From positions 1 to 30,452 of the IMG/VR virus record IMGVR_UViG_3300007754_000366: a DNA stretch of 30,452 bases. The stretch is one strand, 5' to 3'. A program made the translations under genes and the position numbers. Under the pieces are notes generated by a model. The model was not told the origin of the DNA, made no database searches, and saw nothing but the letters and a program-made list of their open reading frames with translations. Positions 3,896-30,426 of this stretch are shown here, in pieces (positions within the stretch are counted from its first letter, which is position 1; every line of letters begins with the position of its first letter). This DNA comes from a virus.

Positions 3896-6100
3896 TCACC
3901 CGACCGCGAAGTCGATGCCTGCGCCCGACCTGTTGTGTTTGGCTTCGTCGATGGCACCTGCCAGGTCACGACCCAGCTGGCGCCTGTTGCCCCCGTAGAA
4001 GTTACCTTGCAGGTTCAGCACATATGTCGTCTTCGTCGCGCCGCCTTCGTCATTGCGCTGCACCGCGCCGACAGTCGGCGCCCGCTGCCTGGTGCGCCCG
4101 CCGCCTGACGACTTCGATCCGCTGGCTGACATACCTGCGACGACCGCATACATGACCGACGACGCCGCGTGCATGGCGCCGCCGACATAGTCTTGCGTCG
4201 CGAACGACGCAGCTGCCGCCGCAGCTTCAAAGGCAGACATCACAGCCGCCTGCGCGGTCGTGTCTTTGATCAGCCCTGCCGCCATTTTGCCGCTGCTGGC
4301 CAGCATGCCAGGTACAGCCTTCGCGTACCCTTGCGCCATCGTGCCGCCGGCGGCGGTCACCTTGGTCACCATCGCTTCCATTTCCTGGAAGCCAGCAACG
4401 CCTTCGCTGACCGCGTTGCCCAGCCCGCCGATGAAGACGTTGTCGATCGATGCGCCGAATTCCTGCAAGGCAGACGCGCCAGACAGCAGCGTGCTGAACG
4501 CCTGATCTTCCAGGTGCCTGAACAGTTCTGACTCCGCGGCGCGTAGCTTTTCCATCTGGGCGACCTGGTCGGCTGTGCGCCCGTCCAGCTTCGCCTGTGC
4601 CTGGTCGGCTTCTGTCTGGTCGCGGTCGGTCAACAGGTCTCGCTGGTCTTTCAGGTTGCCGCTGATGTCTTTGGGCTTTTGCTTGCGACTGCCGCCGCCG
4701 CGGGTCTTCGGTGGCTTCAGCGGTCTGTTGCCCTGTTCAAAGATCAGCGGCAGCGTCTTCGTCAGCAGTACATCGGCTTCTGTCTGCAGCTGGGTCGCCA
4801 GCCCGATGTCGCCCTGCTGTTTCAGCAGCGCAGCTTCTGCCTTCAGCACCGCTGCCGCCATCGTCGCCTGTCGATGTCGCTGCACGTTCAGCTGGCCGAC
4901 GTTCAGCGCCACCTTCGCCGCCGCCTTCGCGGTCTTATCCATTGCGCCAGCTGCGGCGGCTTCGGCTTCGGCGACCGCTGCGGCTGAACGTGCCGCCGAC
5001 GTCTGCGCAGTGACCAGGCGTCCCAGTTCTGGATTGACCTCGTCAGCCAGGCGGGCGCCCAACTTGCCCAGTAGCTTATCGGCGTACTCCGTCTGCTTTG
5101 CGGCTGACCAGCTTGCGCGCTTCTGCGCGATCAGCTGGTGCACGCTGGCGCGGATCTGTCCTGCGGTCTCCTCTGAAGACGCGCCCAGCGTGTTGATTGC
5201 ACCCCTGAATCGGTCGATCCCCTTGTCATTGAAATTCTTAAGCAGGTGGCGCACGTTCGCCGCCAGCGCCTGCGACTTCTGCACGTTGTCGCTGTCAGGC
5301 AGGATCGCTTTCATGGTGTCAGCAATGCGCTTCAGCAGCGGCAGCAGCGTGCGCTGCATAATGTCGACCGCATCAGCCCACGACTTGCGGAACTGTTCGG
5401 CGTCAGCCAGGGCGCCCTGACCGATCTTCACGTCGCCGAACGCTTCCTTAGAAGACAGTGCTGCTTTTTCGAGTAGTACCGCGCGCTTCTGCGCGATGTT
5501 CATCTGTTCCGCGCTGATACCCAGCGTCTTCGCGTGATCGCGAAAGGTCTTCTCTAGATCCAGGTGCAAACCCAGCTGTTTGAAACCTTCGTCAGTCGCG
5601 CCGACCACAGACGTCAGCAGACCCTGCGCGACCTCTTCTGTCGTCTTGCCTGTCGCCGTCGCCGCCTTCGTGGCGATCAGCAGCGACTGTTCGATCTGGT
5701 TGAACGACAGCCCAGCGCGCTGCGCCTGCGTCGCGAACGACTGCAAAAAGGTCTTCGTTGCACGACTGGCGGTCGCGGCTTCCATGCGACCCATTGCGTC
5801 GGCGATGCTGTCGAAGCGCTTTACGAACTGCGTTTCAATGGCAAGCGACCTGCCGATCGTCTGCATTCGTTCGGCGACCTGTGACCCGACAGTCAGCAGC
5901 TTACCTGCGATGTCCAACGCGGCGTTCACTGCGATCGTGCCCAGCTTCCAGCCGTCTTCGATCTTCTTTGACGCCTTCGCTGCTTTCTTTGTCGACTTCT
6001 CAATGCCCAGCACTTTCGCGTCGATGCTGCCCAGCATCTGCGTTATGCCGTCTTCGCCTTTGACTGAAATGATCAGTTCGGCTTTTTGCTTCAGCGCCAT
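3896..6100 (-). CDS. Tail tape measure protein
   Basis: 734 aa, the longest complete tail gene. It lies directly behind the tail chaperone pair, as in lambda-like phages. It begins MALKQKAELIISVKGED, then continues as a long Ala/Lys/Gln-rich, mostly helical protein with few Cys. A hydrophobic stretch (about residues 595-660, rich in Ala, Gly and Val) resembles the membrane-active part of tape measure proteins. The C-terminus carries an LNLQGNFYGGNRRQLG segment of a kind often seen at tape measure ends. Such proteins set tail length during tube polymerisation and are ejected ahead of DNA. At the usual rule of about 1.5 angstrom per residue it would fit a tail near 110 nm (inference). The start ATG overlaps the upstream stop as TGATG. 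Confidence 0.92.
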   Translation of the reverse strand: MALKQKAELIISVKGEDGITQMLGSIDAKVLGIEKSTKKAAKASKKIEDGWKLGTIAVNAALDIAGKLLTVGSQVAERMQTIGRSLAIETQFVKRFDSIADAMGRMEAATASRATKTFLQSFATQAQRAGLSFNQIEQSLLIATKAATATGKTTEEVAQGLLTSVVGATDEGFKQLGLHLDLEKTFRDHAKTLGISAEQMNIAQKRAVLLEKAALSSKEAFGDVKIGQGALADAEQFRKSWADAVDIMQRTLLPLLKRIADTMKAILPDSDNVQKSQALAANVRHLLKNFNDKGIDRFRGAINTLGASSEETAGQIRASVHQLIAQKRASWSAAKQTEYADKLLGKLGARLADEVNPELGRLVTAQTSAARSAAAVAEAEAAAAGAMDKTAKAAAKVALNVGQLNVQRHRQATMAAAVLKAEAALLKQQGDIGLATQLQTEADVLLTKTLPLIFEQGNRPLKPPKTRGGGSRKQKPKDISGNLKDQRDLLTDRDQTEADQAQAKLDGRTADQVAQMEKLRAAESELFRHLEDQAFSTLLSGASALQEFGASIDNVFIGGLGNAVSEGVAGFQEMEAMVTKVTAAGGTMAQGYAKAVPGMLASSGKMAAGLIKDTTAQAAVMSAFEAAAAAASFATQDYVGGAMHAASSVMYAVVAGMSASGSKSSGGGRTRQRAPTVGAVQRNDEGGATKTTYVLNLQGNFYGGNRRQLGRDLAGAIDEAKHNRSGAGIDFAVG

Positions 6101-11321: not shown

Positions 11322-11791
11322 CAGTTGCCCCCAGCTGCGCCGGCGCGCGTTTCAGGTGTCCACTTGCTTTCGGTTTTGCCGCGCGCGGTGACGCCGCCGG
11401 CGATGTTCAGATCGTCGGTGGTCGTCGCTTGGCCCGACGTCTTTCGCTTGTCGTTCGCGATGCGCTGGCGCTTCGCTTCGTCTGCCAGCGGTCGCGGTTG
11501 GAACATGACGAAGCCGCCTTTTACGCCGCGCATCTGCACGCGTTCGTCGCCGACGCGTCTGAAGCCGCGGGCGTGCAGGCGTCGTTCGGTCTTCTCTGTG
11601 ACCACGCGCACCAGCTTGCCGTGTCGCGGGTCAACCAGTTCGGCGGGCCCGTCCCATTCAAAGGGCGACTCGATAGACCCGACCAGCGGGCCAACGTTCG
11701 GCAGGTCGGTGATGATCTGATCTTCGGGCACGCCCAGCGCGCGCATGTGATCGGCGATCTCTTTGTTCTTCGCGCCGCGCCGACCTGCCAT
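11321..11791 (-). CDS. Hypothetical protein in head operon
   Basis: 156 aa, basic, starting MAGRRGAKNKEIADHM. The first 60 residues look like a small alpha/beta unit (helix, then PEDQIITDLPNVGPLVG), followed by charged helix-forming sequence and a flexible C-terminal end. It sits between the scaffold-like and decoration-like genes with stop/start overlaps on both sides (TGATG at the start and TGATG at the end), so it is certainly part of the head operon. I do not recognise a family. A minor head protein or capsid assembly factor is possible. Confidence 0.75.
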   Translation of the reverse strand: MAGRRGAKNKEIADHMRALGVPEDQIITDLPNVGPLVGSIESPFEWDGPAELVDPRHGKLVRVVTEKTERRLHARGFRRVGDERVQMRGVKGGFVMFQPRPLADEAKRQRIANDKRKTSGQATTTDDLNIAGGVTARGKTESKWTPETRAGAAGGN

Positions 11792-12408
11792 CAGTTGATC
11801 CCCAGATGGTCAAACATGCCGTCGTAATGCTTGAACAGTTCCGTTTCTTTGTAGGCGCCTGGCGACGTGCGCGCTTCCTTGAACATGCGCAGCTGTTCGG
11901 CGTCGTATCCGCCTGGCTTGCGCGTCGCGGCGCCGCCCAGTGCGGTCGTGCCACCAGGCGCGTCGGCGTCGAACAGGTAAGCTTTCTTCTCTCTGAAGTC
12001 TGCCAGCCAGGCGACGGCGTCGTCGGTCAACTCGCCCGCATCGGTCAGCGCGACGTTGTCTTTGATCACAGGCCAGAACGTCGCCGAGTCTTTGAGACCA
12101 GGCAGCGCAGCCAGGGTCGCGGTCTTCTTCAGCGCCGCGTGCTGTACGCCGTTCTTCGTCTGCGACTCTGCAAGCTGGGCTTCGGCGGCTTCAGCGCGCG
12201 CGGTCAGTTCTGCCAGCTGTGCGGCATGGTCGTCGGCGGTCTTCGCGTCTGCCGCCGCCTTGATCTTCGCTTCGGCGGCTTCCGCCCTGGCGCGTGCCGC
12301 TGCGATGGCGGCGGCAGGATCGGCGGGCGTTGGCGGTGTGGGCGCAGGATCGGCGATTACCGGATCGGGTGTCGGGTCAGCAATCGGATCGGGTGTCGGA
12401 TCGGGCAT
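11791..12408 (-). CDS. Capsid scaffolding-like protein
   Basis: 205 aa. Residues 2-30 are a Pro/Asp repeat (PDPTPDP ... DPTPDP), encoded by a 24-bp near-repeat that includes two copies of a 14-mer at 12362-12375 and 12386-12399 on the plus strand. Residues about 32-95 are Ala/Glu/Lys-rich with heptad character and probably form a coiled coil. The C-terminal half holds FWPVIKDNVALTDAGEL and ends KHYDGMFDHLGIN. Disordered N-terminus, coiled coil and a short C-terminal capsid-binding end describe phage scaffold proteins, and the gene precedes the capsid gene. First gene after a promoter-like element; AAGGGG lies at a good distance from ATG 12408. No protease motif is seen. Confidence 0.8.
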   Translation of the reverse strand: MPDPTPDPIADPTPDPVIADPAPTPPTPADPAAAIAAARARAEAAEAKIKAAADAKTADDHAAQLAELTARAEAAEAQLAESQTKNGVQHAALKKTATLAALPGLKDSATFWPVIKDNVALTDAGELTDDAVAWLADFREKKAYLFDADAPGGTTALGGAATRKPGGYDAEQLRMFKEARTSPGAYKETELFKHYDGMFDHLGIN

Positions 12409-19604: not shown

Positions 19605-20818
19605 CAGCGCACAGCCAGCCGCTGACCGCGGCGCGTCTTCGCGATGGCGTGCAGTTCGGCTTCCAGCAGGGTGACCTGTTCGCGCGTCAGGGCATCGCCG
19701 GCGCCGATCTTCTTCAGCAGCGCCGATACGCGCTTCTGATCCAGCGTCAGCGCGTCATACAGGTCGTGCGGCACGCCTGCCGTCTCGAGACGCGCAAGCA
19801 CCGACTTGACCGGATAGGTGCGCGATGTCGTGCCGATGACCTTGAACGTCTTACCGCCCGCTTCGAGCTCGTCTAGGTTGTCGGCTTCCAGGTGCGTTCT
19901 AACGACCTTCGCGATCTCCGACTTGCGCTTCTTTATCAGCCCTTCAGCGGCTGTCAGGTGCGCATACTCTGCACAGGCGCTGTCGATGTCGGTCAGGTCT
20001 GCAGCTGGCGTGCCTATCGGCGACCTGGTCGCCGCCTTCCAGGCTGGGCAGGTCGCCCGCCAGTCGCACCAGCCGCACAGCCCGTTCAGCTTCGGCTCGA
20101 AGGCGTCTGGCGCTTCTTCGATGCGCGTGATCAGCGCCCTGGCGTACTTCAGCACGTTGTCAGCCTTGTCGCGGGTCATGGTCGCTGTGAGCTGGTAGTC
20201 ATGCCGCATCAGATCCAGGGCGACGACCACAGCGGGCGCGTCTGGATACAGGCGCCAGGCGACAGCCGCATAGATGCCCATCTGCAAGCTGGATTCGAGC
20301 TCTCTTTGCGACGGGCGGTACTTGCCCGTTTTGTAGTCTGTGACGACCACTGTGCCGTCAGGCAGGCGGTCTATGCGGTCGATGTAGCCCATCAGGCGGG
20401 CGCCATCGATCAGCAGGTCAAAGCGATGCTCGACTTCGGCGACGTGCGGCAGGCTACCGATGCGCTTCGCCCACAGCTGCAGACAGTCTTCGCCGATCAG
20501 CGCCCAGTCGATGCCGACCAGGTCGGTCTGTGCGAACTTGCGCCAGTACAGCGCCAGCAGGCGGTCGACAGGGATGGGCCCGCGGTAGCCTGTTCTGACG
20601 ATGCCTTCAGCGGCTTCTTCGTTCACGCTGTGCACCAGCTTGCCTGTGTCAGCGGCAGCACGCGCGTCAGCCAGCGCCGGCGGCGCCTTGCCGTCGGTCA
20701 AGTAGCGCTTTGCGAAGCTGAAGCCGCACCGCTCGAAGGTGTCAAGGCTGCTGTAGCTGTAGTGATCGCGGTAGCGTCGCCCGATGGGCGGCAGCATCTG
20801 TACGGTCGTGTCGTTCAC
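19604..20818 (-). CDS. RecB/Cas4-like PD-(D/E)XK nuclease with Fe-S cysteines
   Basis: 404 aa. It has SYSSLDTFERC (21-31), GKLVH with H63, GYID with D147, VTDYKTG with D161 and K163, and QMGIYAA with Q179: the full series of RecB-family nuclease motifs. Four Cys (C31, C248, C251, C257) in the spacing of AddB/Cas4 proteins should hold a 4Fe-4S cluster. These enzymes are DNA exo- or endonucleases in recombination and end processing. Residues 270-404 are helical and of unknown role. It starts with GTG at 20818 (AGGGGG ahead, GTGA overlap). With the SSB-like and RusA genes it forms the phage recombination set. Confidence 0.9.
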   Translation of the reverse strand: MNDTTVQMLPPIGRRYRDHYSYSSLDTFERCGFSFAKRYLTDGKAPPALADARAAADTGKLVHSVNEEAAEGIVRTGYRGPIPVDRLLALYWRKFAQTDLVGIDWALIGEDCLQLWAKRIGSLPHVAEVEHRFDLLIDGARLMGYIDRIDRLPDGTVVVTDYKTGKYRPSQRELESSLQMGIYAAVAWRLYPDAPAVVVALDLMRHDYQLTATMTRDKADNVLKYARALITRIEEAPDAFEPKLNGLCGWCDWRATCPAWKAATRSPIGTPAADLTDIDSACAEYAHLTAAEGLIKKRKSEIAKVVRTHLEADNLDELEAGGKTFKVIGTTSRTYPVKSVLARLETAGVPHDLYDALTLDQKRVSALLKKIGAGDALTREQVTLLEAELHAIAKTRRGQRLAVR

Positions 20819-22038
20819 GTGTCCCCCTGGCTAAATAGGCTGATCTGATGACCTGTGCGGTCGGCGTCTTCATCGTCGAGCTGGCGCGCCTGGTCGGCGC
20901 TGATCCCTGCGACCCCATGCCAGTGCGCGATCCTGGCGGCGGCGATCTCGACGTGCTTGGGGTCCAACTCAAAGCCGACGAAGGCGAATCCTTCCATCAG
21001 CGCAGCGGCGCCCGTTGTGCCGCTGCCAGTGAACGGGTCCAGCACGCGCCCGCCTGGCGGCGTTATCAGCCGCACCAGCCAGCGCATCAGCGCAATTGGC
21101 TTGACGGTCGTATGCACGTTCCGAATGTTCGTTGCCGTCTTGCCTGACCTGGCGTGATTCTGCCCTGCGCTGTCAGCCTTGCGACCTGTGATGTCTTCGC
21201 GCGTCACGACGGGCAACGCGTCAAGACCTGCTTCGCGTTCGGCGCGCGATGCTTTGGCTTCGTATCTGAAGACAGGGAAAAACGCCGACCAGTCAGCGCG
21301 AACAGCGCCCAGCAACACGTTAGGTGGCCAGCGCCCGCCTTCGTGCCCGTCGCCGCCCATCTGGGCGCCTGCGCCCATTGCGGCGGGCGACGCTGGGTCA
21401 ACCAGGGCACGACGTTGGGCACAGTCGTCATCGGTCGCCAGGCGGCAGGCGTCCACATTCAGCGCGCCTGTGCTGTGCAGCTGCACATTGGCGGCAACGG
21501 TCCCTGACAGGGGTTTGCGGGCCAACACGATCGGTTCGTGCGCTGGCTTCAGCGCCGTTCCGAATCCCTGCCATTGCCTGGCGGCGTCGGTGGCCGGCGC
21601 TGTCGCATCGTATTGCGGCTGATACGCGCCCAACGATTGGGTATTCGTCGACCCTGCGCCCTTTGACCGCCCGATGACCTGGCGATCGGCGCCCGCTGCG
21701 CGATCAATCGCCTTTGAGACGTCCAGCGACTTCGGGAAGCCCGATCCGTAGATCCAATGCAGCGAATCGCGGATCTCAAAGCCGACATCTTCGATCGCGC
21801 ACGCCATCCGGTGATAGGTGCGCGTGGCGCCGAACGCCGCCAGGTGCCCGCCTGGCTTCAGAACGCGCAGACAGTGCGCCCAGACGTCGGGATCGTATGC
21901 GATGCCTGATCGGTCCCAGTCCCTGCCCATAAAGCCCAGCTCATAAGGCGGATCGGTCACGATGGCGTCGATGCTGTTGTCGGGCAGCTGCGCTAACAGC
22001 TGGCGGCAGTCGCCGCAGTCCAGGCGCCAGGGCTTCAC
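20815..22038 (-). CDS. DNA methyltransferase, beta class (DPPY)
   Basis: 407 aa. Motif IV DPPYELGFMGRDWD begins at D29; motif I DPFTGSGTTGA lies near the C-terminus (FTGSG 336-340), followed by the Glu of FVGFELD. The order catalytic motif, target recognition part, then SAM motif is the beta class, which methylates N6 of adenine or N4 of cytosine. The DPPYELGFMG form is common in phages and prophages. Residues 120-310 make up a large variable target-recognition region. No restriction enzyme partner lies next to it, so it is an orphan enzyme that probably protects phage DNA. GTG start at 22038 overlaps the next gene's stop (GTGA). Confidence 0.92.
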   Translation of the reverse strand: MKPWRLDCGDCRQLLAQLPDNSIDAIVTDPPYELGFMGRDWDRSGIAYDPDVWAHCLRVLKPGGHLAAFGATRTYHRMACAIEDVGFEIRDSLHWIYGSGFPKSLDVSKAIDRAAGADRQVIGRSKGAGSTNTQSLGAYQPQYDATAPATDAARQWQGFGTALKPAHEPIVLARKPLSGTVAANVQLHSTGALNVDACRLATDDDCAQRRALVDPASPAAMGAGAQMGGDGHEGGRWPPNVLLGAVRADWSAFFPVFRYEAKASRAEREAGLDALPVVTREDITGRKADSAGQNHARSGKTATNIRNVHTTVKPIALMRWLVRLITPPGGRVLDPFTGSGTTGAAALMEGFAFVGFELDPKHVEIAAARIAHWHGVAGISADQARQLDDEDADRTGHQISLFSQGDT

Positions 22039-23033
22039 AGATTCAGCCCCAGCTGCGCGACAGTGCCAAGGGGCAGGTTATCGGGCGTCGCCCGCCCGCT
22101 GTCAGCCAAGGCGCGCGCGATGCGCTGATCGGCTAACGCGATGTATTCGGCGTTGATCTCTGTGCCGATGAACGATCGACCCAGCGACACAGCAACAGCC
22201 CCTGTCGTGCCGCTGCCTGTGAAGGGGTCCAACACGACGCCGCCGATCGGACTGCCAGCCTTGACGCAGGGTTCAACCAGCGCAGGCGGCATCGTGGCGA
22301 AATGGGCGCCCGAATACGGCTTGCTGTTGACGGTCCAGACGGTGCGCCTGTTGCGCCCTGTGCCGTTATTGACCCAGGGTACCGACGACCCCATGTGTGT
22401 GCCGCGGCGGGCGCGCTGACCATGCACGTCGATCTTTCGTTGCACGTTGCCAGATGCTGCGCGCAACGCGTGTTCGCGCACCGCGTCGGCGTCATAGAAA
22501 TACCGCGCGCTCTTAGTCAGCAAAAAGACGTACTCATGCGCCTTCGTGGGTCGATCTGTCACCGATTCGGGCATGGGGTTCGGTTTGTGCCAGACGATGT
22601 CGGATCGCAGGTACCAGCCGTCAGCTTGCAAGGCGAAGGCGACGCGCCACGGGATGCCGACCAGGTCTTTGGGCTTCAAGCCAACAGGCGGCTTGCGTGG
22701 CGGTAGCGCTGTTGCTGTACCCTGCCCTGCATTCACACCTGTGCTGCTGTTGGACCCCTGCCGTCCCGTCATGCATCCAGCCGCATAAGAGTCCCCCAGG
22801 TTTAGCCACAACGTGCCGTCATCCCGAAGCACACGCCGAACTTCTCGGAAGACCCGAACCATGTTCGCGACGTATTCAGCCGGTGTCGGCTCTAACCCCA
22901 GCTGGTGGGCGTTGCCATAGTCGCGCAGCCCCCAATATGGCGGGCTGGTGACGCAACAGTGCGCGGTGCCGTCGGCGAACGGCAGCGACAGCGCTGATGC
23001 GCATTCGACCCTGGCTGTGACCGCCTGCGTCAA
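22035..23033 (-). CDS. DNA methyltransferase, beta class (SPPY)
   Basis: 332 aa. TSPPYWGLRDYG (29-40) is motif IV and DPFTGSGTTGA (269-279) is motif I, with the Glu of FIGTEIN after it. SPPY is frequent in N4-cytosine methylases but also occurs in N6-adenine ones, so the base is open. The start is TTG at 23033, overlapping the upstream stop as TTGA with GAGG eight bases ahead; no ATG lies in front of the motif. It stands in tandem with a second methylase of a different subgroup, giving the phage two target specificities. Confidence 0.92.
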   Translation of the reverse strand: MTQAVTARVECASALSLPFADGTAHCCVTSPPYWGLRDYGNAHQLGLEPTPAEYVANMVRVFREVRRVLRDDGTLWLNLGDSYAAGCMTGRQGSNSSTGVNAGQGTATALPPRKPPVGLKPKDLVGIPWRVAFALQADGWYLRSDIVWHKPNPMPESVTDRPTKAHEYVFLLTKSARYFYDADAVREHALRAASGNVQRKIDVHGQRARRGTHMGSSVPWVNNGTGRNRRTVWTVNSKPYSGAHFATMPPALVEPCVKAGSPIGGVVLDPFTGSGTTGAVAVSLGRSFIGTEINAEYIALADQRIARALADSGRATPDNLPLGTVAQLGLNL

Positions 23034-26867: not shown

Positions 26868-27337
26868 GACAGCCCCAGCGCTTGCGCCAGTCGGTTCGGG
26901 CAGAAGTCGCCGCGGTCGCCCAGCGGCGTGACCTTGACCCGCAGCTGCGGTCGCGCCAGGGCGCCTTCGAGCGCGGTGTATGTCGTCAGGGTGTCGCCGC
27001 AGCAGACCTGCTTATCGTCACCCCAGCAGCCCTTCATCGCGTCAAATACCAGCTTTTCGATGTTGTCCTTGTCTGGCTTCTGCGGGCACCAGCACAGCCC
27101 GATCGGGTCTTTCTTTCGCAGCAGCCGCTTCGGTCGCTGGATCACAGCCAGGATGTCGACGCGCAGCGGACCTTCAAGGCGTTCGGCTGGCAGGGCAGCG
27201 CGGGCGAAGGTGGCGACAGCCGCCATCAGCGGACCGTTGCGCGGATCTGGATAGGTGTGACCTGTGCCCTTGACCCTGATGCGCGGCTTTTTGCCCTGCG
27301 GCGCCAGGGGCACGTCGAAGCGATAGCTGATGGTCAT
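26864..27337 (-). CDS. rusA: Holliday junction resolvase, RusA family
   Basis: 157 aa. The KPDKDNIEKLVFDAMKG (87-103) motif, with D89 and D91, and WGDDKQV (105-111) with D107/D108 are the acidic metal-binding residues and conserved block of RusA. It resolves four-way junctions as a dimer, removing branches before packaging. The length is a little over the E. coli protein (120 aa), owing to a C-terminal extension (LRVKVTPLGDRGDFCPNRLAQALGLS). ATG at 27337 overlaps the preceding stop (ATGA). Confidence 0.9.
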   Translation of the reverse strand: MTISYRFDVPLAPQGKKPRIRVKGTGHTYPDPRNGPLMAAVATFARAALPAERLEGPLRVDILAVIQRPKRLLRKKDPIGLCWCPQKPDKDNIEKLVFDAMKGCWGDDKQVCCGDTLTTYTALEGALARPQLRVKVTPLGDRGDFCPNRLAQALGLS

Positions 27338-27792
27338 CCGGCGACGCCTTCAGCGCGATAGATCACTTGCTGTGCCGCCTGGCGTGCGGCGGTCGTCTGT
27401 TCATAGGTCAGCTCGAGCGGGCGCAGGCGCGCCAGCCAGCGGTCGACGGTCGTGCCAGTCGCCAGGCAGTCGCTGTCGATCAGGCGCCCGGCGACCAGGA
27501 TGAAGCCGCACAGCTGGCGCAGGTCGCGCGGGTCAGCCATGCATGCGTTGACCAGGTCGGCGGGCCAACAGTCGACATCGATTGCCGCGGCGATTGCTTC
27601 CTGGTTGCGACCCAGCGCGCCCAGCACAAGCGGCGCCATTTCACGCGGCACAGATGTCTTGCGGACCCATTTGTAAACCGTCTGCCAGGGCACGCCGACT
27701 AGCGTGGCGACGTCACCGACTGAGAATTCGGTTTTGTCCAAGGCGGCGTATGCGCCGAAGTCTGACGGCACGACGTTGATCGGTGTCGTCAT
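27334..27792 (-). CDS. HTH-domain protein, putative regulator
   Basis: 152 aa. Residues 22-48 (EFSVGDVATLVGVPWQTVYKWVRKTSV) are a clear helix-turn-helix, with the recognition helix TVYKWVRK. The remaining 100 residues are helical with a few Cys and no known domain. As the third gene of the leftward operon, it may regulate early genes or be a replication accessory. ATGA overlaps on both sides. Confidence 0.75.
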   Translation of the reverse strand: MTTPINVVPSDFGAYAALDKTEFSVGDVATLVGVPWQTVYKWVRKTSVPREMAPLVLGALGRNQEAIAAAIDVDCWPADLVNACMADPRDLRQLCGFILVAGRLIDSDCLATGTTVDRWLARLRPLELTYEQTTAARQAAQQVIYRAEGVAG

Positions 27793-27971
27793 CGGGTCAC
27801 CCGCTTGCGCACGCGCGCCAGGTGCTGGGCGGCGACGCTGACCGGCTGGTCGTCGTCGATCGTCTGCGCTGCCGCCTGGACTGCGCCGACGCGCACCAGC
27901 TCGCGGACCATTTCACGCGCGACCGCCACAGCGACCGCGTCAACTACGCGTTTTAGTTCAGCGTCTTTCAT
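27789..27971 (-). CDS. Small helical protein
   Basis: 60 aa, Val/Ala/Arg-rich helix (MKDAELKRVVDAVAVAVAREMVRELVRVGAVQAAAQ) followed by a polar tail ending in Arg-rich sequence. ATG overlaps the first gene's stop (ATGA), stop overlaps the next start (ATGA). Function unknown; amphipathic helix could serve in dimerisation. Confidence 0.6.
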   Translation of the reverse strand: MKDAELKRVVDAVAVAVAREMVRELVRVGAVQAAAQTIDDDQPVSVAAQHLARVRKRVTR

Positions 27972-28201
27972 GTGGTTGTGATCCAGCGCCGACCTGTCTG
28001 CGGGTCGACAAAAACGCCCGTCGCCGGGCGTGGTAGCGGTGACAGCACTTCGGTGCCAGCTGTCGCAATGTGCAAAGCGACCCAGCGCCCGACTGTTTTG
28101 CGGTCGCGCCCGATGAAGCGTGCAAATTCAGCGATCGTCATTCGCGGCTTCGGCAAAAGGTCGGTTTGGCTGTTTTCTGGCGCGTCCATAGGTTCGACCA
28201 T
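27968..28201 (-). CDS. First gene of the leftward operon: small HTH regulator
   Basis: 77 aa from ATG 28201; ATG at 28189 is the alternative and the open frame also extends to 28258 with AT-rich codons unlike the gene. Residues 21-46 (MTIAEFARFIGRDRKTVGRWVALHIA) are a helix-turn-helix, followed by a short strand TGVFVDPQTGRRWI like a beta wing. It could be a Cro-like early repressor or an excisionase (Xis). It is the first product of the leftward transcript and lies opposite the putative repressor gene, as Cro does. No exact family is claimed. Confidence 0.7.
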   Translation of the reverse strand: MVEPMDAPENSQTDLLPKPRMTIAEFARFIGRDRKTVGRWVALHIATAGTEVLSPLPRPATGVFVDPQTGRRWITTT

Positions 28202-28260
28202 ATGGTACGAAAATGCCCTAAAACAACCTAAAATCCGCAGAAATCCGCAGAAATCCACAC
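28202..28260. promoter_or_regulatory. AT-rich control region with phased A-tracts and a 10-bp tandem repeat
   Basis: Runs of A start at 28210, 28220, 28230, 28241 and 28251, that is once per 10-11 bp, so they lie on one face of the helix and should bend the DNA. Two perfect copies of AAATCCGCAG (28231-28240, 28241-28250) and a third imperfect one (28251-28260) sit in the same period. CCTAAAA occurs at 28217 and 28227. It lies just upstream of the first leftward gene; its promoter should be here or in the next 60 bp, but I see no good -35/-10 pair for the leftward direction. Confidence 0.6.
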
Positions 28261-28280: not shown

Positions 28281-28310
28281 TTGACCGCCTGACTAACGTG
28301 GCGTTAGTTT
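28281..28310 (+). promoter_or_regulatory. Rightward promoter with palindromic operator
   Basis: TTGACC (28281-28286), an 18-bp spacer and TAGTTT (28305-28310). Within the spacer, overlapping the -10, lies the inverted repeat ACTAACG-TGG-CGTTAGT (28292-28308, 7-bp arms). The predicted transcript starts a few bases before the ATG at 28320, so the mRNA would be nearly leaderless, like lambda cI from PRM. The same module, with the same spacing, is at 30397-30426. Confidence 0.6.
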
Positions 28311-28319
28311 GATGCAGTC

Positions 28320-28856
28320 ATGACAGGCTGGGACGAAAAGCGCAGACGCGACGGCATTACCAGCCAGCAACTGGCTGACGCGCTGGCTGCTGCCAGCGGG
28401 TCACCTGTGTCACAGCGCGCCCTTTACGATTACGCCCGCGGAAAACTGCCACGCGCCGCGGCGACATTCCGACTGCTGGACGCATACGCCCGCGGCGATG
28501 TCGAGCTGGTTGACGACGCCGACGGCGTGCCGCAGCTGGCGCCTGTCGACAGCGAAACGAAGCACGCGACGGCATTGGCGACGACTCGAAAGCTGGCTGA
28601 ACAGATCCTGGCGCTGACCGACCGCGATGGCGTCATAACCTTGATCGAAGCGAAGACGCCTGCTATCGGTGGTACCAGTGACAGCGCCGAAAGGGTGCAG
28701 CCAGGGTACCGCATCAGCCGCAACCTGCACGACCGTATACAGCGCGCATTCGACATCGCGCACGCCGCCGACCCTGCCAGGTTCAGCAGCGTGAATGCCC
28801 TGGTCGAACACGCGTTGTCGCAGGCATTCCCTGACCTACCTGAAAAGCGCCGCTAG
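28320..28856 (+). CDS. Probable repressor: N-terminal HTH, C-terminal RHH-like region
   Basis: 178 aa. Residues about 12-57 (GITSQQLADALAAASGSPVSQRALYDYARGKLPRAAATFRLLDAY) look like a phage repressor-type HTH. Residues 130-172 (YRISRNLHDRIQRAFDIAHAADPARFSSVNALVEHALSQAF) fit a ribbon-helix-helix or Arc-like strand-helix-helix. A linker with Asp/Thr joins them. Two DNA-binding-type domains in one repressor are unusual. There is no RecA-dependent cleavage domain (no Ser/Lys protease motif visible). It lies divergent from the early operon, behind its own operator-bearing promoter, with no ribosome site. Most likely the lysogeny repressor, but a role as activator or antirepressor cannot be excluded. 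Confidence 0.75.
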   Translation: MTGWDEKRRRDGITSQQLADALAAASGSPVSQRALYDYARGKLPRAAATFRLLDAYARGDVELVDDADGVPQLAPVDSETKHATALATTRKLAEQILALTDRDGVITLIEAKTPAIGGTSDSAERVQPGYRISRNLHDRIQRAFDIAHAADPARFSSVNALVEHALSQAFPDLPEKRR

Positions 28857-28915
28857 CGTTCGCAGGAAGCGAGGCAGCAACCTTGCGCATGACGCGCCCG
28901 ACTTAGGGGCGACCG

Positions 28916-30160
28916 ATGAACTGCCAGACCTGTAACAGCGAGCTGTGCGCGTATCACTTCAAAGACCCTGACGGCGCCTTCAGCGTGCGCGCCTGGCTTG
29001 AACGCCGCGAACCTGCGCGGCGCGACCGCTGGCGCCTGCGCGTCTTCGTCAAGGGCAGCGTCAACCCAGCCAATGGGAAGCCGACCGAAGATCACTACTT
29101 CGGCGCCGACCGCCAGGCGGCTTTTGAAGAAGCTGTCGCGATGAAGGTCAACTGGTGCAACGGGCTGTACAGCGTGCCTGACCCTGCGCCGGCGACGCTG
29201 GGTCAACTGGTCGACGCCTGGATCGAAGGCGGCACGATCACGCGCGGTCGGTTCAAGGGCAACCCAGTCACCGACGCGACGCGCCTGGTCGGCACGATCC
29301 AGCTACGCCGCTTCGCCCGCGCGATGGGCGAGACTCGCCGACCAGATTCGCTGTCGGCGCCGGTCATCGCGAATTGGGTCGACGGCATGCTGCACTTCAG
29401 AACGGGTCAGCCGGTCAGCCCTGTGACGAAGAACAACGTGATCAACTGGGTTCACATGCTGCTGGGCTGGGCGAAGGTGAAGGGCTGGCTGACTGATACG
29501 CCGTTCATTGAACCTGTGCCGATGCCCGCACAGCGCACGCTGCCCTGGCTGGACTATCCACAATGGCAGACCTACCTGAACGGCTGCACCGACAGCCTGC
29601 GGGCGCGCGCACAGTTCATCATGTACACAGGCATCCGCCGGCGCGAGCTGTGCCTGGCGCGCTGGGAAGACGTGCAGACGTTCGGCACGACGTCGACCCT
29701 GACCGTCGGCGGCAGCTACACAACCAAGTCGAAGAAACAGCGGGCTGTGCCGCTGACGCCCAAAGCGATGGAAGCGATCGACCTGGCGCGTCAGGTCTTC
29801 GGTGATCAGGGGTACATCTTCTGCGACGGCACCGACACGACTGACCCGATGAACGTTACCGCACAGTTCCGCAACTGCTGGCTGAAGCTGAAGGCTGAAG
29901 CCGAAGCGACTGGCACGACACCCCTGGTGCAAAAGGCGGCGACGGCGCATAGCTTTCGGCGGGCAGCAGGTGCCCGCTGGCTGGCGCAGGGCATCGGGAT
30001 CTATACCGTCGCGACCGTGCTGGGCCATTCCGTCGCGGTGTGCGAACGGCACTATGCAGGCATCACCCGCCGCGACCTGCACCGATGGTTCAAAGGCATC
30101 GACGACGTCGACGCCGCCAGCGCCCTGGTGCTGTTGCCTGTCGCCGCCGACAAGGCATAA
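28916..30160 (+). CDS. int: Tyrosine integrase with N-terminal Cys/His knuckle
   Basis: 414 aa. Catalytic set: R241 in TGIRRRE, K271 in TTKSKKQRAVPL, H345 and R348 in HSFRR, H371 in LGHS and nucleophile Y380 in ERHYAG. Residues 90-200 are the helical core-binding domain. The N-terminus starts MNCQTCNSELCAYHF, with C3, C6, C11 and H14: a likely zinc knuckle ahead of the arm-binding region. It inserts and excises the phage at the attachment site. Start ATG 28916 has AGGGG ahead. It follows the repressor gene on the same strand by 59 bp and is followed by attP-like repeats. Confidence 0.95.
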   Translation: MNCQTCNSELCAYHFKDPDGAFSVRAWLERREPARRDRWRLRVFVKGSVNPANGKPTEDHYFGADRQAAFEEAVAMKVNWCNGLYSVPDPAPATLGQLVDAWIEGGTITRGRFKGNPVTDATRLVGTIQLRRFARAMGETRRPDSLSAPVIANWVDGMLHFRTGQPVSPVTKNNVINWVHMLLGWAKVKGWLTDTPFIEPVPMPAQRTLPWLDYPQWQTYLNGCTDSLRARAQFIMYTGIRRRELCLARWEDVQTFGTTSTLTVGGSYTTKSKKQRAVPLTPKAMEAIDLARQVFGDQGYIFCDGTDTTDPMNVTAQFRNCWLKLKAEAEATGTTPLVQKAATAHSFRRAAGARWLAQGIGIYTVATVLGHSVAVCERHYAGITRRDLHRWFKGIDDVDAASALVLLPVAADKA

Positions 30161-30396
30161 TGGCGCGTACCCCAGGCGTACCCCAGGCGTACCCCAGACG
30201 CGCAAGCTGTGGCAATCAAAGGGCTTTATCACGTGGACATGAATAGACGAACCTTTGTCGACACAGGCGCGCAGTCCACCGAATAGAGCCAGCCTGGCGC
30301 GTACCCCAGGCGCGCAATCATGGCGCAGTAACACGGTTAGCCGGGGTATGGGGTAACACCCTGCTATCAAACAAGTTGTTTCCCTGACGTTCACTA
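30161..30396. other. Non-coding attP-like region with repeats
   Basis: Downstream of int, 11-bp GCGTACCCCAG occurs three times in tandem (30165-30175, 30176-30186, 30187-30197) and once more at 30299-30309. The 18-bp segment TGGCGCGTACCCCAGGCG is repeated exactly (30161-30178 and 30295-30312). Two inverted GGGGTA elements (30343-30348, 30350-30355) match TACCCC in reverse. Such clustered arm-type repeats flanking a core, next to int, are the plan of attP. The core would be in the roughly 100 bp between; I could not identify it. A CAAAGG/CCTTTG inverted pair also lies there. No gene is supported. Confidence 0.55.
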
Positions 30397-30426
30397 TTGA
30401 CGACGTCGCTAACGTGCCGTTAGTCT
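30397..30426 (+). promoter_or_regulatory. Second copy of the operator/promoter module, facing out of the window
   Basis: TTGACG (30397-30402), 18-bp spacer, TAGTCT (30421-30426); operator CTAACG-TGC-CGTTAG (30409-30423). Distances from -35 to operator (6 bp) and to -10 (18 bp) equal those of the module ahead of the repressor gene. The transcript would start near 30432 and serve a gene beyond the right edge. Confidence 0.6.

Follow-up and report, generated by a model that had tools for sequence, protein, structure and literature searches.

Two copies of one promoter-like module, each carrying a 15-bp palindrome, were identified on the two sides of the repressor-integrase gene pair of a viral DNA (IMG/VR record IMGVR_UViG_3300007754_000366; the window, below, is the whole stretch analyzed, 30,452 nucleotides). 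The modules share spacing and orientation and are unique in the window, and two arrays of direct repeats accompany them; these features were observed directly. The chances are about even that the modules are the paired promoter-operators of the lysogeny control circuit of a temperate phage, with a 178-aa repressor-like protein as the most likely regulator; regulator binding and promoter activity are both predicted from the sequence.

Sequence and uniqueness of the two modules

Copy 1 (28281-28310, + strand) reads TTGACC-GCCTGA-CTAACG-TGG-CGTTAGT-TT and copy 2 (30397-30426, + strand) reads TTGACG-ACGTCG-CTAACG-TGC-CGTTAGT-CT. The -35 hexamer is TTGACC in copy 1 and TTGACG in copy 2, the spacer is 18 bp in both, and the -10 hexamers are TAGTTT and TAGTCT, respectively. 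The palindromes are CTAACGTGGCGTTAG at 28293-28307 and CTAACGTGCCGTTAG at 30409-30423. TTGAC is placed 12 bases upstream of the palindrome in both copies, TAGTYT follows the TTGACS hexamer at 18 bases, and both copies are intergenic. The initial annotation had described the same module with identical spacing on both sides of the repressor-integrase pair, and its sequences were found to be exact. Its statement that the palindrome overlaps the -10 was refined: an overlap exists, but it is restricted to the first three bases of TAGTTT and TAGTCT.

The perfect form CTAACG-TGS-CGTTAG occurred twice in the whole window, at the two module positions, and the virus record as a whole held only this pair. 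No further copy of CTAACGTGNCGTTAG was present in the window at up to two mismatches, beyond those at 28293 and 30409, which agrees with the earlier claim that the module has no other copy there. When the centre of the palindrome was left free, the window contained no other perfect copy, and the nearest imperfect one was a 2-mismatch site at 5437, within a gene. Counted by strand, four matches to CTAACGTGNCGTTAG were observed, whereas dinucleotide shuffles averaged 0.13 and gave 2 at most. Equal six-base inverted-repeat pairs with a shared upstream five-mer in register were found once, against a shuffle mean of 0.045; this count ignores base composition and therefore understates the rarity of the pair.

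A search of 2.9 million viral contigs returned the bare palindrome in 108 stretches, none of which had TTGAC in the corresponding upstream position. As the TTGAC context was missing, these stretches were set aside as unrelated. The wider pattern TTGACN6-8CTAACGNNNCGTTAG matched a single stretch in the 2.9 million contigs, within a portal-like ORF. A chance origin of the module pair was ruled out, since no shuffle reached the observed number of matches and the wider module is rare in viral contigs.

Promoter reading of the modules

Each module is interpreted as a rightward promoter whose operator is placed between the -35 and -10, because the pattern TTGAC-N16..19-TANNNT is confined on the + strand of the whole 30-kb window to these two places. 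Two further sites were found on the - strand. One of these (12482-12453, TTGACT-18-TACCTT) is promoter-like, has no palindrome and is intergenic, upstream of the gene at 11791-12408. The -10 hexamers of the modules match the sigma-70 consensus at only three of six positions, and a generic promoter scan reported neither copy.

The -10 of copy 1 is located about 10 nt before the ATG at 28320, and no Shine-Dalgarno sequence was found. The copy 1 transcript would start at this ATG or a few bases before it; its leader would measure about 3 nt, and the message would be leaderless-like. In an alphaproteobacterium, Methylorubrum, such messages form a known minority class of 7% (PMC9320726).

Genome layout around copy 1

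Copy 1 is situated in a divergent intergenic region, which measures about 116 nt with ATG 28201 taken as the start of the leftward gene. The region is AT-rich, with a GC content of about 46% compared to 64% for the window. Rightward of it are the repressor-like gene (28320-28856) and the integrase gene (28916-30160). Leftward, up to the left edge, are genes for HTH proteins, RusA, SSB, two methyltransferases and a RecB/Cas4-like nuclease, followed by terminase, a portal-like protein (assigned by position), capsid and tail genes. No RNA families were found in the region, and no tRNA in the window. The two DNA methyltransferase-like genes adjoin each other at 20815-23033; the second is 56% identical to a protein of Pseudomonas phage LESphi3, a match far closer than that of any other searched protein of this phage.

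The divergent intergenic region also contains tandem direct repeats of AAATCCGCAG (28231-28256; period 10 bp, 2.6 copies), which are candidate Cox/Apl-type sites positioned where the leftward early promoter is expected.

Integrase and probable attachment region

The integrase gene (+ strand) encodes a tyrosine integrase of 414 aa, which scored 55.8 bits against Pfam Phage_integrase (cut-off 27.1). The R..H-x-x-R..H..Y residues are conserved as R241, H345, R348, H371 and Y380, and the N-terminal region would fit an arm-binding domain. The stop codon is followed directly by three tandem 11-bp repeats of GCGTACCCCAG (30165-30197), and a fourth exact copy is present at 30299-30309. These repeats are probable integrase arm-type or RDF sites of attP. 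The AAATCCGCAG and GCGTACCCCAG arrays are the only exact tandem repeats with a period of 9-12 bp in the whole window. More speculatively, an inverted repeat with one mismatch, GTTAGCC-N8-GGGTAAC at 30336-30357, could be a core-type site. The DNA that separates the integrase from copy 2 thus resembles an attachment region with a putative attP, a feature absent from the initial annotation.

The integrase gene is followed by 292 nt of non-coding DNA, in which copy 2 is found. It is probably located on or just beyond the attachment region, since it lies past the integrase and beyond the non-coding DNA with the GCGTACCCCAG repeats. Such a place for a second putative operator, beside the attachment region, may be unusual. 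The record is a linear fragment with 26 nt of contig after copy 2; ATG, GTG and TTG are all absent from the + strand of these last 26 nt. A hairpin, GCGCGAATTTTCGCGC, occupies the last contig bases (30436-30451), just downstream of the copy 2 promoter. No circular end-to-end overlap was seen when the terminal sequences were compared by eye. The 292-nt region had no match in phage or plasmid records, a result that does not tell host from phage.

Candidate regulators and proposed mechanism

The repressor-like protein of 178 aa (28320-28856, + strand) has a weak N-terminal HTH (HTH_31, residues 8-63), with a Pfam E-value of 0.037 that falls below the cut-off, and no match was found in PHROG or NCBIfam. 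Its AlphaFold model is of low confidence (pLDDT 59), and a fold search with this model was uninformative. The modelled C-terminus has a strand-helix-helix arrangement, possibly a ribbon-helix-helix. Two HTH proteins of the divergent early operon were also considered, both with weak matches to excisionase, Cox-like or MerR-like HTH proteins. The first early gene (27968-28258, - strand; start at GTG 28258, ATG 28201 or ATG 28189) has weak similarity to excisionase/Cox-like repressors, and the product of the second (27334-27792, - strand) is a candidate rival regulator.

The 178-aa protein is the best candidate for the regulator of the palindrome; its binding is predicted, with a probability of about one half, and it is a plausible natural candidate in an autoregulated operon. 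The separate direct-repeat array at 28231-28256 suits proteins of the Cox/Apl type, and a dimeric repressor would then be left as the binder of the palindrome. In the proposed mechanism, a dimeric phage-encoded HTH regulator would bind the 15-bp palindrome between the -35 and -10 and block RNA polymerase. Copy 1 would drive the repressor-integrase operon as a leaderless-like transcript, and the regulator, most likely the 178-aa product, would thereby limit its own synthesis. The same regulator would govern copy 2, which lies past the probable attP arms and would drive a rightward transcript beyond the contig.

Alternative explanations

The operator of a lysogeny repressor usually overlaps a lytic promoter. 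The palindrome of copy 1 covers the 178-aa gene's own promoter, and no evident leftward lytic promoter is overlapped. Given this position, a Cro- or Cox-like protein from the divergent operon is a real rival, and the early proteins were given about one quarter as regulators of the palindrome. In lambda, Cro takes OR3, the position over the repressor promoter, and copy 1, which overlaps the repressor-integrase promoter only, resembles OR3 in this regard. The palindromes could then be operators of an early lytic HTH protein (27968-28258 or 27334-27792), which would shut off both promoters, that of the repressor-integrase operon and the second one, on entry into the lytic cycle; we regard this as possible but clearly the weaker reading, the weak HTH matches of both early proteins notwithstanding. 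Apl of coliphage 186 acts at both switch and att, which favours such a protein, but the sites of Cox/Apl proteins are direct repeats spaced by one helix turn, not a 15-bp palindrome (PMC7498355). Moreover, direct-repeat arrays that would suit them exist separately, with 10-bp repeats at 28231-28256 and 11-bp repeats at 30165-30197. The initial annotation had proposed one regulator, most simply the 178-aa protein, for both modules; the shared orientation holds and a single regulator is probable, but an early Cro/Cox-like protein fits the modules equally well.

An unlikely reading is that the palindrome serves in recombination or DNA architecture, as a site for the integrase (core-type) or a host factor, and that the promoter-like hexamers are incidental. 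Copy 2 is near the arm-like GCGTACCCCAG repeats, and core-type sites can take the form of an inverted repeat with a short centre, but copy 1 is located at the repressor promoter, where recombination is not expected, and the equal spacing of TTGAC and TAGTYT in both copies argues for promoters. Less likely still is a copy 2 that belongs to host DNA or the prophage boundary and regulates a host gene. The contig, a linear fragment, does stop 26 bp past copy 2, but this copy shares an otherwise unique phage module. A MerR-type activator bound to the dyad in the spacer is very improbable. The dyad is indeed between the -35 and -10, and a weak match to a MerR-like HTH was found for one early protein, but MerR-type promoters have a 19-20 bp spacer and a centred dyad, whereas the spacer here is 18 bp and the dyad, about 4.5 bp off-centre, overlaps the -10. 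Finally, under the preferred reading of paired promoter-operators, there is a slim chance that copy 2 is beside the crossover, so that integration would change the DNA transcribed and the regulator's output would depend on integration state. The DNA transcribed from copy 2 would then be phage genes in the circle; in the lysogen it would be host DNA or another prophage end.

Relatives and comparison with known systems

A protein search of viral contigs with the integrase, repressor-like, terminase, capsid and early HTH proteins revealed no relatives. The integrase alignment comprised three sequences, the two others from distant loci with 23-26% identity. A tblastn search of phages and plasmids gave only integrases below 60% identity (about 21-28% among the matches listed); for the repressor-like protein no match was found in phages. 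A search of genome contigs yielded one distant Firmicutes integrase. No relative close enough for an analysis of conservation was found in the collections searched, which may omit near records of the same genome. The two modules offer a small, directly testable regulon in a phage without close relatives in these collections. If copy 2 fires next to attP, lysogeny control would be coupled with the attachment region through a second transcript made there, possibly that of a lysogenic-conversion or integration-control gene.

The proposed arrangement resembles PRM/OR of lambda in its leaderless repressor transcript and in an operator placed over the repressor's own promoter. Lambda, however, has three operators, compared to a single palindrome per promoter here, which does not evidently overlap a lytic promoter. 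Apl of coliphage 186 and Cox of P2 provide a case of one regulator acting at both switch and att (PMC7498355), and helix-phased direct repeats are present at both places here. Apl sites are direct repeats (PMC7498355), whereas the operators proposed here are palindromes. The AAATCCGCAG and GCGTACCCCAG arrays differ in sequence and each is absent from the region of the other, and one protein for both arrays is therefore not supported.

The repressor of mycobacteriophage BPs, gp33, recognizes several promoters across its genome through an identical palindrome (PMC4557955). The present phage likewise has an identical short palindrome at both of its intergenic promoters, which are predicted from sequence. 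The gp33 operators consist of a 12-bp palindrome paired with a degenerate second half-site, in five regions (PMC4557955), whereas two single palindromes are found here. The attP of BPs is inside the repressor gene (PMC4557955), whereas the att-like repeats here follow the integrase. The proposed operator pair is a fresh instance of an already known arrangement.
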